A stretch of 40,782 nt of DNA from NCBI RefSeq assembly GCF_002251635.1, contig NZ_NMOJ01000071.1, positions 1-40,782 on the forward strand, given 5' to 3'. The translations under genes were made by a program, and so were the position numbers. The notes under the pieces are model-generated. The model was not told the origin of the DNA. It ran no database searches and saw only the letters and a list, made by a program, of their open reading frames with translations. Below, piece by piece: positions 24,971 to 32,614 of this stretch; positions within the stretch are counted from its first letter, which is position 1, and each line of letters starts with the position of its first letter. The stretch is from Pseudomonas mandelii (GTDB taxonomy: Bacteria > Pseudomonadota > Gammaproteobacteria > Pseudomonadales > Pseudomonadaceae).

Positions 24971-25459
24971 TTAGTAGGCCCGAGCACGCTTGCTTGTTGA
25001 TGCTCGGATTAGGTTGGTATCAAGCGCACCGCTGCGTCGATCAAGTCCCCGGGTAGTAGCAGTGCGAACCGTGAGGATGAGTTGCACCTGTTGATGCAGA
25101 CGATGAACCCAATTCCTGTAAGTCCGGTCTGCATCCTCGGCGAGCTGCAACAAACGCATCTGTTCACGCACGGTCATCGGCGGCTGGGCCAGGTAACGAT
25201 TGCGAGCCAGTAAAGCCAACTGAGCGCCCTTCTCCGACTGACGCTCAAGCTGTGCAACTGCGGCGGCAACCTCGGTACTGGCGTGATCCATACCACCACC
25301 GGCCGACATCATCAGATCGCGCGATCCAGGTGTGCCACGTGGAGCACATCCACCGTACTGCATGATTGTCGCCATCGGACTTCCCAAACCACCACCGTCG
25401 CCAACCTGGCAGTGCTGGGCGCCCCAATGCTGCATCAATGCTTCCATTTCTTCGATCAT
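24971..25459 (-). CDS. Q-like late regulator candidate
   Basis: A 162-residue protein starting MIEEMEALMQHWGAQHCQVG. A glycine-rich part (GGGLGSPMATIMQYGGCAPR) is followed by a helical region with LARNRYLAQPPMTVREQMRL and TYRNWVHRLHQQVQLILTV, which looks like a sigma-like or HTH helix pair. It lies between the replication region and the late genes, the position of Q antiterminators and ArpU-type late activators. The family is known to me as a phage protein of that position, but its activity is inferred, not shown. Confidence 0.5.
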   Translation of the reverse strand: MIEEMEALMQHWGAQHCQVGDGGGLGSPMATIMQYGGCAPRGTPGSRDLMMSAGGGMDHASTEVAAAVAQLERQSEKGAQLALLARNRYLAQPPMTVREQMRLLQLAEDADRTYRNWVHRLHQQVQLILTVRTATTRGLDRRSGALDTNLIRASTSKRARAY

Positions 25460-25483
25460 CGCCCTTTCCCCCGAAAAACCGAA

Positions 25484-25774
25484 CCCAACACAGAAAAACC
25501 ACTACCCAACACAAACCCAACACAATTAAATCTCTTTAAAATCAATACTCTTATTAACTTTGAGTTGGGTGTGTTGGGTTTGTTGGGTTTTTCTGTCCTC
25601 GCATAAGAAAAATTTACGACCATCGCCTTCGGTGAAAATAACGTCATGCATGCGCGCACGCGACGCCAAACCCAACACACCCAACACAACCACCGGAAAC
25701 CCGCGCAAACAAAGGACTTACACTGTGTTGGGTAGCCAAAACCAACCCGACACACACCCGACACACCCAACACA
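25484..25774. other. CCCAACACA repeat field, putative replication origin
   Basis: The 330-base gap beside the primase-helicase gene holds eight exact copies of CCCAACACA: plus strand at 25484, 25505, 25516, 25671, 25680 and 25766, minus strand at 25570 and 25724. Two CCCGACACA variants (25746, 25757) and two shortened GTTGGG copies (25564, 25582) add to these. Three copies face right, then a 40-base AT-rich stretch (25525-25563), then copies facing left. Repeats around an AT-rich core beside a replicase gene are the form of an iteron origin. Open frames here are repeat artefacts (for example repeated WVCWV). Function is inferred. Confidence 0.65.
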
Positions 25775-25787
25775 CTTTTAGGCGTAG

Positions 25788-28487
25788 TCATGCGGCAGCC
25801 GCCTTGATGTGGTCCCAGTTGTCCACATTCCAGCCTGCCAGCTTCGCCTTTGCCCGCCAGGCAACGACCATCGCACCAAGCTCGGCCGACTTCAGTGATG
25901 GGGGCGGGGAAGCATCCTGATCAACCGGAAAGAAGAACGCGCCAAACTTGCGATTACTGCCATCCGTCCACGGTATCGAACGCGTTTTTTCCACTTCGGA
26001 GTTGATGAAAAGCGAGAACTTCGTCTGACTCATCACGTGTTCCTTGTTGCGCTGACACCACTCCAGGAACAGTGAGTAAAGGTCAGTGGAAAGACACGGC
26101 CCCCAAAGCCCCTGACCCAACTCGCTGTATTTCCACAGGTGTAGGAATGTCTGCCAGCCGGCCCGACTCAGGGCTACCAGTCGCTCACGGGCGTCAGTGG
26201 ATGGCGGGCGTGTTCGCTGATTGAAGTCGCCCAAATCAACCGACAGCAGCCAGCCGTAAAGGGCCGCGACGCCACCATGCTCCAACTCCTGGCCGATGGC
26301 TTTCTGGCGGTCCACCGGCAAAGTCTCCAAGGGCCAAACCACCAACATCCGGCGGTCGCTGTCACTGATCGGCCACGGCATGATCTCATTGCTCAAGAAA
26401 ACCGCGTTCATATGGTTGGATTCCTCCCAGCCATTGATGAACTTGGATTCCATCCGAACCGTTTTGCCAGTGACCAGGTGCTTGATCTTGCCCACCTGGT
26501 TGTAGCGTTGATCTCGACTCACGACCTCTTCGAAAACTGCCCACAACTTACGGCTTTGCCAGGCGTTGAAATTGCTTTCCAACTGGGTCTGCCCAACTGT
26601 TGCAGCGTACTGACCGTAAAGTCTGCCCAAGGTATCAGCGAAAAACAGACTCTTACCCGAACCCTCCATGCTGGAATGCATCAGCACTGCGGTATCCATC
26701 TTGGCGCCCAGATGCTGTAGCGGAAATGCCAACCAGCGCGTCAACCAGAGCGCCGCATTTTCATCGTGGTTACACAAGAACGAAATTAGCCACCGCAAGT
26801 TGGCACAAGCCGCATCGTCCCTGACCGGCTCCAGCGGCAGTCCATCAAAGGTATTGATGTACACCGCCGGATCCTTGGTCATGGTCGGGTCAAACACGAT
26901 GTGGTCCACATCCACCGTGCGCCGCTCGCTGCTGTTCAGCCACAGTGCATAAGCGTCACCCAAGGCCATTTTTACCGCGCCTTCCGCTACACGTCGTTTC
27001 TTTTCCCGGTCCCACACATCCTTGGTGCCGTCGATGTACACATAGCGATCGGTAGGCGGCATGCCCAAGGCACCACCTTTTTTGCCCGACATGCGTCGCG
27101 TCTGCTCGATGTCACGGACATGCTCATCAGAGATCAACCGCTTGCTCGTGTCATCCAACCAGGCTTTGGCCAGCGGCTTGCCGACCCGCGCTTCGAATGC
27201 TGATTTTTTCATCACTCGCGATTGGTCACAGTCCCAAACGTGCGTGGTCCCCTCGACCAAAGCAAAACGACGGAGCAAGTGTTCAAGTGTCATAACCTCC
27301 CCCGCCCCCCCGTCAGATGCAGGAGCGGCTTCGCTGGGCGCGACAGCGGCCGCCGGGTGCGGCCCGCTCGAATCACCGGATGGGGGCGGGGGAAGATCAC
27401 GCGGGTCAGGCTTCACTGAATACTGCATACCCAGCATCCGCGCAGCGTCCTTCACCGCCTTCGACTGGTCACCACCATGCTGCAACAAACAGAACACCTC
27501 GAACGCGTCGTTCTGATGCCCGTTCGCGAGCGGATCAGCGCCGTGGTGGGAATAAACCTTACCATCGTCGCTGACCGTCACACCCGGCATCCCGGTGCTA
27601 CTGTGCGGATACAACCACTTACTGCCGCGCTTGATGTAGTCGTGCGCCCGCAACAGCTCTTCAACGTCGTGGCTGCGATTAAATTCATCGATAACAGACG
27701 GCTTGTCTGCGGCAGGCGGTGGACGTTTGATAACTTTCGCCGGAGGTGTCTTCGGCTTGGGGGCCCACGGGCACGCGGCCTCGGCGTCACGCTTGAAGAT
27801 GTCCCAATGGTTCCAGATCTTCAGCAGCTCAGGCGCAAGTACGGGCAAGCCATCGACAGAGCTTGGTGGTGTGCGCCAGGTGTAGGGCTTACCAGTGCCA
27901 GGGTGAATCGATGGCGGCAACACGTCTTGCACCGGCCCACCACGCAATTCGAACACGGTGATGCGCTGATATTCGTCGGCCTCGGCCCGCGCCTCGGCCT
28001 CACCTACTGCATCACCAGCGTCTTTTGCCGCTTTGGCCTTTGCGGTCAGAGTCTTGTGGATCGAACCATCAGGGTCTTTTTCATTGGGCCACGCAAGTGC
28101 AACCCGGCTCAACTCAACACCATCAGGAACGCGGAACATAATGCGGAAGCGCACCGGGTTGCCAACTACAGTCGGAAATACCAGAGCCATCGCATCAAGG
28201 TCAATTTCCAGCAGGTCATACAGCACGTGCCGAGCCCACTGAACATCATCAACATCCAGAGAACAGATCCGACTCGGCCCCAATACAACACCGAGGTTGT
28301 GCTGGGGCTTCTTTTCCCAGAACGCGGCAGCCTTCGCCGAGTCCGTGAAGTAGCCGCCCGGCTTGTTCCACCCCTTCCCCTTCGGACCCTTTTCACCGGG
28401 CTCTATCGGGACTAACGCCAAACCGAATGCATCGATGTAAAACTGAGCCCAATCAGCGGTAGGCAATCGATTGTCGTGATCACTCAT
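25788..28487 (-). CDS. primase-polymerase / helicase replication protein
   Basis: An 899-residue replication protein. The N-terminal region (residues 10-260) is a prim-pol domain: GVVLGPSRICSLDVDD supplies the DxD metal site (D78, D80). The C-terminal region holds a superfamily 3-like or DUF5906 helicase: SSMEGSGKS (Walker A, K612) and LWAVFEEVVSRD (Walker B), then FLSNEIMPWPISDSDRRMLV as the sensor and arginine region. A low-complexity linker (PPPPSGDSSGPHPAAAVAP) lies near residue 390. The start MSDHDNR at 28487 overlaps the zinc-finger gene by four bases. The CCCAACACA repeat field lies just after its stop. Confidence 0.88.
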   Translation of the reverse strand: MSDHDNRLPTADWAQFYIDAFGLALVPIEPGEKGPKGKGWNKPGGYFTDSAKAAAFWEKKPQHNLGVVLGPSRICSLDVDDVQWARHVLYDLLEIDLDAMALVFPTVVGNPVRFRIMFRVPDGVELSRVALAWPNEKDPDGSIHKTLTAKAKAAKDAGDAVGEAEARAEADEYQRITVFELRGGPVQDVLPPSIHPGTGKPYTWRTPPSSVDGLPVLAPELLKIWNHWDIFKRDAEAACPWAPKPKTPPAKVIKRPPPAADKPSVIDEFNRSHDVEELLRAHDYIKRGSKWLYPHSSTGMPGVTVSDDGKVYSHHGADPLANGHQNDAFEVFCLLQHGGDQSKAVKDAARMLGMQYSVKPDPRDLPPPPSGDSSGPHPAAAVAPSEAAPASDGGAGEVMTLEHLLRRFALVEGTTHVWDCDQSRVMKKSAFEARVGKPLAKAWLDDTSKRLISDEHVRDIEQTRRMSGKKGGALGMPPTDRYVYIDGTKDVWDREKKRRVAEGAVKMALGDAYALWLNSSERRTVDVDHIVFDPTMTKDPAVYINTFDGLPLEPVRDDAACANLRWLISFLCNHDENAALWLTRWLAFPLQHLGAKMDTAVLMHSSMEGSGKSLFFADTLGRLYGQYAATVGQTQLESNFNAWQSRKLWAVFEEVVSRDQRYNQVGKIKHLVTGKTVRMESKFINGWEESNHMNAVFLSNEIMPWPISDSDRRMLVVWPLETLPVDRQKAIGQELEHGGVAALYGWLLSVDLGDFNQRTRPPSTDARERLVALSRAGWQTFLHLWKYSELGQGLWGPCLSTDLYSLFLEWCQRNKEHVMSQTKFSLFINSEVEKTRSIPWTDGSNRKFGAFFFPVDQDASPPPSLKSAELGAMVVAWRAKAKLAGWNVDNWDHIKAAAA

Positions 28488-28687
28488 CTGCGCCGCTCCC
28501 GCAACCCCTGGCAACTGACGCAGGTCGCACAACCCTGGATCGTCTGTTGGCGAAGCAACGGGATAGGTTCGTCGCAATCTTCACAGATTTGCGCGCTGAC
28601 GGCGCTCGTTGGGCGCGGACGGCGATCCAACGCCACTTGCAGGAAGTACTCGGCCTGGTCGTTGGCAATATCGATAACGTCAGTCAT
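28484..28687 (-). CDS. small TraR/DksA-type zinc-finger protein
   Basis: A 67-residue protein, MTDVIDIANDQAEYFLQVAL followed by a C4 finger: ICEDCDEPIP and CATCVSCQ provide the four cysteines (C-x2-C ... C-x2-C). Short proteins of this class resemble the C-terminal finger of DksA/TraR and can bind RNA polymerase in the secondary channel, altering transcription. It overlaps CII (8 bases) and the primase gene (4 bases), so all three are translated together. Confidence 0.85.
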   Translation of the reverse strand: MTDVIDIANDQAEYFLQVALDRRPRPTSAVSAQICEDCDEPIPLLRQQTIQGCATCVSCQGLRERRR

Positions 28688-30535: not shown

Positions 30536-30561
30536 AACCGCCCTGATGGGCGGTTTTTTTT
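30536..30561 (+). terminator. terminator of the CI gene
   Basis: AACCGCCC and GGGCGGTT pair around TGAT and are followed by a run of T. It is a textbook intrinsic terminator 19 bases after the CI stop. Confidence 0.93.
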
Positions 30562-30579
30562 CGTCATAAAAAATAAAAA

Positions 30580-30641
30580 TTACCTGAAAAACAAAATAAA
30601 GTACCCACGGGTATTGAACGAATAATTTACCTTGAGGTAAT
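30580..30641 (+). promoter_or_regulatory. second operator cluster, rightward early promoter
   Basis: TTACC-TTGA-GGTAA (30627-30640) is a perfect site of the same form as the CI-cro operator. GTACC-CACG-GGTAT (30601-30614) and a half-site TTACCTGA (30580) lie upstream. A promoter can be read as TTGAAC (30614-30619) and TAATGT (30638-30643) with an 18-base gap holding the operator; another reading is the AATAAT at 30621. This is the counterpart of the cro control region and would be shut off by CI. Confidence 0.65.
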
Positions 30642-32269: not shown

Positions 32270-32614
32270 ATGAGCAAAGCACGCCCCTTCATCGACACGT
32301 TACGAGATATCGAAGCCGGAGGTCTGCTCGATGAACTCAGCGAAACCCAACACAGCCTGATCGACGCTATCCGCCAGACCGGCAAGGGCGGAGAGCTGAC
32401 CATCAAGCTGACTTACAAGCCAGACGGCAGCGGCCAGATGACCATCAAGGCTGACGTCAAAGCGAAAGAACCGATCCTGACTCGTGGCACATCGCTGTTC
32501 TTCCTGACGCCTGAGGGCAACCTGACCCGCCGCGATCCACGACAACAGGACCTGCCGCTACGCACGGTCAGCGAAGATCAGGCGCCGGACAAACTGCGCC
32601 ACGTCAGTCACTAA
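32270..32614 (+). CDS. hypothetical conserved phage protein
   Basis: A 114-residue protein, MSKARPFIDTLRDIEAGGLL, with ELTIKLTYKPDGSGQMTIKA and an FFLTPEGNLTRRDPRQ end. Small proteins of this type are often found just upstream of DUF2303 genes in Pseudomonas phages; I know no function. It may act with the DUF2303 protein, judging by order alone. Confidence 0.7.
   Translation: MSKARPFIDTLRDIEAGGLLDELSETQHSLIDAIRQTGKGGELTIKLTYKPDGSGQMTIKADVKAKEPILTRGTSLFFLTPEGNLTRRDPRQQDLPLRTVSEDQAPDKLRHVSH

Follow-up and report, generated by a model that had tools for sequence, protein, structure and literature searches.

A probable iteron origin directly 3' of the primase-helicase gene of a Pseudomonas mandelii prophage

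Introduction

The initiators of satellite phage P4 and of the Staphylococcus aureus pathogenicity islands (SaPI) bind the repeats of their own origins (PMC4234260, PMC7581432). In SaPI and the phage-inducible chromosomal islands (PICI), the origin is described as lying immediately 3' of the initiator gene, with two sets of iterons around an AT-rich region (PMC6092414, PMC7581432). According to a 2018 paper, no known bacterial replicon other than PICIs had this plan (PMC6092414). Since then, an iteron origin downstream of rep has been reported as shown for Salmonella genomic island 1 (SGI1) (PMC7433901) and as proposed for the staphylococcal cassette chromosome mec (SCCmec) (PMC7581432), and these later downstream origins loosen the claim of exclusivity. 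Here we analyze a field of short repeats at positions 25484-25774, behind the primase-helicase gene of what looks like a prophage of Pseudomonas mandelii (GCF_002251635.1, contig NZ_NMOJ01000071.1, positions 1-40,782; this whole stretch of 40,782 nt is hereafter called the window). Judging from its sequence and from its relatives, the field is very probably the replication origin of the phage. In the titles and abstract openings covered by our literature search, no such origin is described for Prim-Pol phages or for phages of Pseudomonas.

Results

Layout of the Repeats and Comparison with P4

The initial annotation had counted eight exact copies of CCCAACACA and four variants beside the primase-helicase gene, and the count stands: the field holds 12 sites, with the variants at one mismatch (25561-25569 and 25579-25587 on the minus strand, 25746-25754 and 25757-25765 on the plus strand). 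Across the window, exact CCCAACACA is found eight times in the field and once at 32346-32354, while dinucleotide shuffles of the whole window contain 0.43 exact copies on average and at most 3, none reaching 9. The ninth copy is remote from the field, and the chance expectation of 0.43 per window covers such a copy. When one mismatch is allowed, the window has 17 matches, which is unexceptional (the shuffles have 10.9 on average and 3 of 100 reach 17). What is exceptional is the clustering and the exact copies, not the window-wide total of one-mismatch matches.

The sites form two halves of six, modules A and B, both within an open frame discussed below (Table 1). Counted from the primase stop codon, the first half lies at +13, +22, +33, +55 (reverse), +99, and +108, the first repeat being 13 bases past the stop. 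The initial annotation mentioned neither this distance nor the two halves nor the open frame. The second half lies at +200, +209, and +218 (reverse), then, after a 36-bp core, at +263, +274, and +295, and the far end of the field comes shortly before the next gene. Spacings in module A are 9, 11, 22, 44, and 9, and in module B a start-to-start distance of 45 bp spans the core. The initial annotation had described clusters facing each other across an AT-rich stretch of about 40 bases. The polarity of CCCAACACA bears this out, with a stretch of 36 bp, and just five overlapping 36-bp segments in the 40.8 kb are richer in AT (starts 30564-30568).

This layout closely follows that of P4. The annotated type 1 repeats of the P4 ori are spaced 10/11/22/43/10, against 9/11/22/44/9 in module A, with the same polarity pattern. 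Each unit of the P4 crr has a 43-bp gap between facing sites, to be compared with the 45 bp of module B, and crr lies directly 3' of the alpha gene as the field lies behind its own initiator gene. The gap in the P4 ori is 83% AT, as is the core of module B, and short iterons in both polarities are common to the two systems. Given the match in spacing, polarity, gap, and place, the field looks like a P4 ori placed next to a crr unit. In P4 the two are 4.7 kb apart, whereas here both plans are adjacent and 3' of a Prim-Pol initiator. The repeats themselves differ, the P4 iteron being TGTTCACC.

Arrays behind Related Primases

We searched for 9-mer repeats at the 3' end of primase genes without giving the repeat beforehand, and took an array score of 4.5 as the threshold. 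The same search, given the P4 regions alone, scored 5.6 for ori and 6.2 for crr, and other segments of P4 reached at most 3.8. A first homologous set comprised 156 loci: 6 came from phage records, 70 from bacterial genomes, and 80 were the best of 371 viral contigs. In 147 of them, the sequence following the primase (610 bp at most) contains at least three exact copies of the repeat. The remaining nine, with primase identities of 38-62%, have zero copies but carry a different repeat family at the same place: their commonest 8-mers differ in sequence and sit at the 3' end of the primase gene. The enlarged set had 354 loci, with a primase match in 300 and at least 330 bp downstream in 202 distinct relatives, which form 23 clusters at 80% identity.

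Related primases without repeats were named in the initial annotation as evidence that would speak against an origin. What we found mostly favors one: 198 of the 202 relatives attain the array score, and 163 of the 202 also show a gap of 42-47 bp. On the other side, four have no array, and most of the remote members of the wider primase family lack one too. In 18 of the 23 cluster representatives, the array beats 30 of 30 shuffles and all other 500-bp segments of the locus. Distances between neighboring sites in the 202 relatives accumulate at 9, 11, 20-22, 42-47, 54-56, 66, and about 90-100 bp, and the distances of 54-56 and 66 bp are what a missed site would give. The primase matches 370 phage records, of which we examined seven, besides six earlier records. 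Among the seven, all annotated phages, Moraxella phage Mcat9, Stenotrophomonas phage S1, and Halomonas phage H4907 have arrays of their own, and LPPA56 also has one.

The association can also be approached from the repeats. A search of 398 genomes of the genus for a double-iteron pattern gave matches in 36, and the reversed pattern gave zero in every row. Among the matches listed, 110 stretches carry the pattern (30 loci from the 36 genomes, plus viral matches; two were already known through their primase). At least four sites within 330 bp are present in 107 of these and the primase in 105, ending at most 400 bp from the array in 102; three primase-bearing stretches hold fewer than four sites. 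An iteron array without a primase is not established, as the five of 110 stretches that lack a primase match all have the array at the end of the stretch. The adjacency to the primase makes it extremely improbable that the terminase uses the repeats as a packaging site (cos or pac). The terminase genes are only about 2 kb away and on the same strand, but the field adjoins the primase rather than the terminase, its geometry is shared with replication repeats of P4, and the repeat variants, as seen below, track the primase.

Repeat Sequences and the Predicted Recognition Helix

The repeat differs from lineage to lineage, while its location and layout stay. Types include TGTGTTGGG, TGTGTAGGG, TGTCTAGGG, TGGTTAGGG, GCCACGGGT, GCCGTGGGT, GGCCGGAGG, TGCCGTGTT, AAGTTGAAG, GTGATGCTT, ATCCCGTAA, and ATGTGACGG, several of them from single loci. 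In the TGTCTAGGG type (locus L260), 12 of 12 site positions agree with those of the window within 1 bp after a constant shift, against 71 of 168 identical spacer positions in an ungapped comparison. Two layouts recur, that of the window and one of the form >>> 43 >>> about 100 <<< 43 <<<. Pseudomonas phage KT1 (PQ316073, an unannotated record, locus L004) has a TGGTTAGGG-type array behind a diverged primase, in nearly the layout of the window minus the fourth, reversed site; it is a natural specificity variant.

These changes have a counterpart in the C-terminal domain of the primase-helicase, where the model places a predicted recognition helix around MSQTKFSLFI, within the last 165 aa. Helices of the form S(Q/H)TKF(S/A)L(F/M) pair with CCCAACACA, CCCGACACA, and near variants, and SHT(K/R)FAEF with CCCTACAC (in one of five, with CCCTGCAC). 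SETKFSLFV is found with CCCTAGACA, SATKFSLFI with CCCTAACCA, and TRERFS with CCTCCGGCC, while SQTKFSTML and SHTKFSSLL accompany ACCCGTGGC and ACCCACGGC. Variants of the predicted helix and of the repeat thus go together, as an association between lineages and not as a statistical test. This association can be read from the sequences, like the match with the P4 ori spacing, the positions of the sites, their place directly 3' of the primase gene, and a geometry kept across unrelated repeats.

The same association bears on two other explanations. Firstly, the repeats might be operators through which a phage regulator, such as the CII-like protein or the repressor, controls the downstream genes; they do occupy the space between the primase and the genes that follow in the same direction, and a CII-like gene is nearby. 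We regard this as very unlikely, for the repeat variants track the primase C-terminus, the arrays adjoin the primase, and the layout equals that of the P4 ori. Furthermore, no sigma-70-like promoter was found in 25300-26000, an absence that says little because shuffles are expected to give only 0.5. Secondly, the field could be an origin whose iterons are bound by another host or phage protein, with the primase-helicase loaded later. Iteron plasmids with separate Rep and helicase proteins exist, and the support for a winged-helix fold in the primase is weak. We nonetheless find this quite unlikely, given that the repeat variants track the C-terminal helix of the primase and that the initiators of P4 and SaPI, alpha and Rep, each bind the repeats of their own origin (PMC4234260, PMC7581432). 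A DnaA box is missing as well: the consensus TTATNCACA is absent from 25456-25791, both exactly and with one mismatch, unlike in the DnaA-dependent iteron origins of plasmids.

A Probable Origin and Its Proposed Binding by the Primase-Helicase

The initial annotation had proposed an origin recognized by an initiator, and the arrays behind related primases and the spacing match with the P4 ori, both read from sequence, support this proposal. The candidate initiator combines an N-terminal Prim-Pol domain (archaeo-eukaryotic primase, AEP), a DUF5906 helicase core, and a C-terminal predicted winged helix. Its helicase core resembles the primase structures PDB 6k9c and 6k9e (E 1.6e-19, profile A1), which we take to be the PrimPol of phage NrS-1. 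The model of the last 165 aa is winged-helix-like, with a mean predicted local distance difference test (pLDDT) score of 84, and a larger model of the helicase and the C-terminus (A4) has a mean of 74.7.

We are highly confident that the whole is best explained as an origin to which the primase-helicase, whose gene is just upstream, would bind through its predicted C-terminal winged helix. In this scheme, the winged helix would bind the 9-bp iterons with one protomer per site, and the two six-site modules could seat two helicase hexamers. The 36 AT-rich base pairs in module B would then melt, the helicase would unwind the DNA, and the Prim-Pol domain would prime synthesis. We infer the binding, its stoichiometry, the two hexamers, the place of melting, and the direction of replication from the patterns described above.

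Several observations weigh against this explanation. Some of them concern the protein. The best Foldseek match of the C-terminal model is a complex of Cdc6/Orc1 with origin DNA, and no match has an E-value below 0.3. Ranked by Z, the matches are weak (a chain of ESCRT-II 5.3, the origin recognition complex 5.2, RFX5 5.1, RFX1 5.0, and the PrimPol of African swine fever virus 4.4). The domain has no detectable sequence similarity to the C-terminal domain of P4 alpha, and the P4 domain is absent from the fold-match rows shown for the model. The GC skew has no switch at the field, a result that we judged uninformative.

Other points concern the relatives, whose counts are not independent because 166 of the 202 fall in two clusters. 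Five cluster representatives do not pass: L073, one of the nine loci with a different repeat family, whose array ties with another segment of its locus, and L176, L179, L187, and L315, which are the relatives without an array among the 202 searched. L315 is probably truncated, since its primase match stops at residue 371 of 540. The criterion of an array plus a gap is missed by 39 of the 202, 26 of which show 54-56 bp instead, a distance that we attribute to a single degenerate site having been missed. No array lies at the primase in phages YuA and AXL_3, and Mcat7 has nothing above its own background. Among the remote loci of phrog_1156, an array was found in 5 of 43 usable ones and 13 more were short or unclear, with a mechanical choice of frame that was wrong for at least L183. 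Four of these remote loci (L175, L332, L344, and L345) have possible arrays of another layout behind the examined frame, and L185 has a strong array (score 10.2) in a segment other than the one behind the examined frame.

A Stop-Free Frame across the Putative Origin

The whole origin is crossed by a frame of 111 codons without stops. Within a fixed stretch of 318 nt, no stop interrupts it in 135 of 140 relatives from the window's cluster and in 25 of 26 from the next cluster. The other five frames contain 2.4-5.7 stops on average, and between 0 and 5 of the 140 relatives have any given one of them open. A frame of 105-118 codons exists in 159 of 166 relatives. At its upstream end, all 140 primase genes have GCA as their final sense codon, even though this codon makes up 12.6% of the alanine codons in the body of the gene. 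At its downstream end, the stop of the frame overlaps a start codon in 159 of 163 cases (ATG in 125, TTG in 21, and GTG in 13).

The length of this frame and its stop/start overlaps at both ends might suggest that it encodes an ordinary protein, the repeats being merely repetitive coding sequence. Its substitution pattern makes this highly improbable. The ratio of non-synonymous to synonymous differences (pN/pS) in 65 pairs is 0.85 in the frame, against 0.78 and 0.77 in the wrong frames and 0.10 in the primase, and it is 0.14 in the first 40 codons of the next gene. Variability is flat over codon positions, and the frame has no family matches. Besides, in the multiple alignment, 13 of 24 other gap patterns (64 of 166 sequences) remain open even though part of their length is shifted out of the codon phase of the main group; the broken frames likewise belong to out-of-phase patterns. 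Counted pairwise, 113 of 162 relatives have at least 15 nt that are out of phase relative to the window, which is more than the multiple alignment supports; we used its 64 of 166 instead.

Openness in itself exceeds what the composition of the alignment columns predicts. Resampling columns in 134 sequences, taken from gap-pattern groups of at least five, predicted 0.68 stops per sequence for this frame, where none was observed; the other two frames showed no shortage of stops (5.75 expected and 6.11 observed; 4.36 and 4.16). The absence of stops from the 65 pairs is by construction, because the pairs were drawn from open frames, and the fair measures of openness are the 159 of 166 and the resampling, both from relatives that are not independent. 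Selection thus seems to preserve the openness of the frame while being indifferent to the peptide.

Other loci with a frame open over the field are L194 (10 of 10), L204 (2 of 2), L205, and L183. On the strand of the primase, no frame is open over the field in eleven lineages (L004, L260, L068, L070, L071, L073, L074, L259, L207, Mcat9, and H4907). In L183, the frame starts 4 bases before the primase stop and continues without a phase shift into the next gene (302 codons), which would make the origin the 5' portion of this gene. In Stenotrophomonas phage S1, a frame is open over the iteron array as well and is annotated as a hypothetical protein, gp2 (locus L505, 2454-2804); it is probably an origin annotated as a gene.

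We lean slightly towards the view that ribosomes cross the origin, and that the stop-free, peptide-neutral frame would thereby couple the downstream genes to translation of the initiator, for instance by preventing Rho from terminating the transcript over the origin. Iterons would drift while their spacing and, in these lineages, the open frame survive. We infer this translation relay from the frame and its neighbors, and a narrow literature search on translation across origins gave no match.

Other Features of the Window

The window encodes a terminase, portal, major head protein, head protease, tail sheath, baseplate, tape measure, tail fiber, and holin, as well as an S24 repressor, a CII-like protein, and an integrase. 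This set of head, tail, and integrase genes indicates a contractile-tailed temperate phage and not a satellite, and the element looks like a seemingly complete phage of this kind, integrated as a prophage. The 6.67-Mb draft genome has a second such region on another contig (G000:C152:56880-57215, locus L159), with an origin 81% identical and with a primase that matches too. Cross-firing or incompatibility would be predicted for a cell that has two initiators with the same type of repeat.

Two conserved blocks of the field are not iterons (Table 1). The most AT-rich 36-bp segments of the window (30554-30604) lie directly after the S24 repressor gene. Other candidate elements were rejected: six Rfam matches are all well under their gathering scores, no sites for integration host factor (IHF) were found in the field, and the only intrinsic terminator is a single weak site at 25660-25645 on the minus strand (mean in shuffles 1.1).

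Table 1. Positions of the putative origin and of the adjoining features in the window.
Feature	Position	Strand	Details or basis
Primase-helicase, 929 aa, proposed initiator	25788..28577	-	Pfam PF09250 and PF19263; phrog_1156 DNA primase
C-terminal 165 aa, proposed iteron-binding winged-helix domain	25791..26285	-	Secondary structure of the model; weak fold matches; association of helix and repeat variants
Stop-free frame, 111 codons, across the whole origin	25456..25791	-	ATGA overlap with the primase stop; end overlaps the next start
Module A, six iterons	25671..25774	-	25766-25774, 25757-25765, 25746-25754, 25724-25732 (opposite polarity), 25680-25688, 25671-25679
Conserved alternating GC-rich block GCATGCGCGCACGCG between the modules	25648..25662		Conservation in 39 non-redundant members of the window's cluster
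Conserved TATGCGAG block, shortly ahead of module B	25598..25605	-	Conservation in 39 non-redundant members of the window's cluster
Module B, six iterons	25484..25587	-	One polarity: 25579-25587, 25570-25578, 25561-25569; other polarity: 25516-25524, 25505-25513, 25484-25492
AT-rich core, proposed unwinding element	25525..25560		36 bp, 83% AT, between the halves of module B
Following gene, phrog_4300, overlapped by the end of the stop-free frame	24971..25459	-	Match to phrog_4300; pN/pS 0.14 in relatives (first 40 codons)

Discussion

The loci described here are a natural series of initiator-origin pairs, in which a single protein family and a single geometry go with some dozen repeat sequences and with a predicted recognition helix that changes alongside them. 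Such a series makes the specificity code directly testable, and with it the reason for the fixed gap of 42-47 bp that P4 has as well. The presence of the P4/PICI origin plan in phages with full sets of head and tail genes bears on the source of the replicons of satellites. The open frame without protein constraint, if true, would point to a link between translation and the function of the origin or the operon.

Among the described systems, pRN1 is akin to the window in its initiator: ORF904 is a Prim-Pol-helicase with a C-terminal winged helix and, as described, an essential region just downstream, but its origin is a stem-loop without iterons (PMC4234260). The rep-oriV of SGI1 has repeats directly downstream of the initiator gene (PMC7433901), as in the window, and the putative origin of SCCmec with Cch2 has repeats downstream of the helicase gene, with three short iterons (PMC7581432). 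As described in these papers, neither has the 12-site plan found here.

The SaPI/PICI rep-ori is closer in arrangement. By the definition given in PMC6092414, a PICI has iteron sets flanking an AT-rich region 3' of pri-rep, and the window has this arrangement. The C-terminus of Rep is described as recognizing the origin, with Rep apparently bound as two hexamers (PMC6092414, PMC7581432), and we propose the same for the window. These islands are satellites, whereas the element studied here has its own head and tail genes.

The same holds for P4, a small satellite. P4 alpha matches DUF5906 with 38.2 bits (cut-off 27.6), and a profile comparison with the helicase of the window gives an E-value of 1.1e-5. 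The two proteins differ in their primase: alpha has Toprim_3, Zn_Ribbon_Prim, and D5_N domains, and the window protein has Prim-Pol. We do not file the window as an alpha-type replicon because Prim-Pol replaces the Toprim domain with its Zn ribbon. Hence, the plan of the origin is known from P4 and from the rep-ori of SaPI/PICI, and what is new is its occurrence in a Prim-Pol phage with a full head and tail gene set, with the plans of the P4 ori and crr adjacent to each other.
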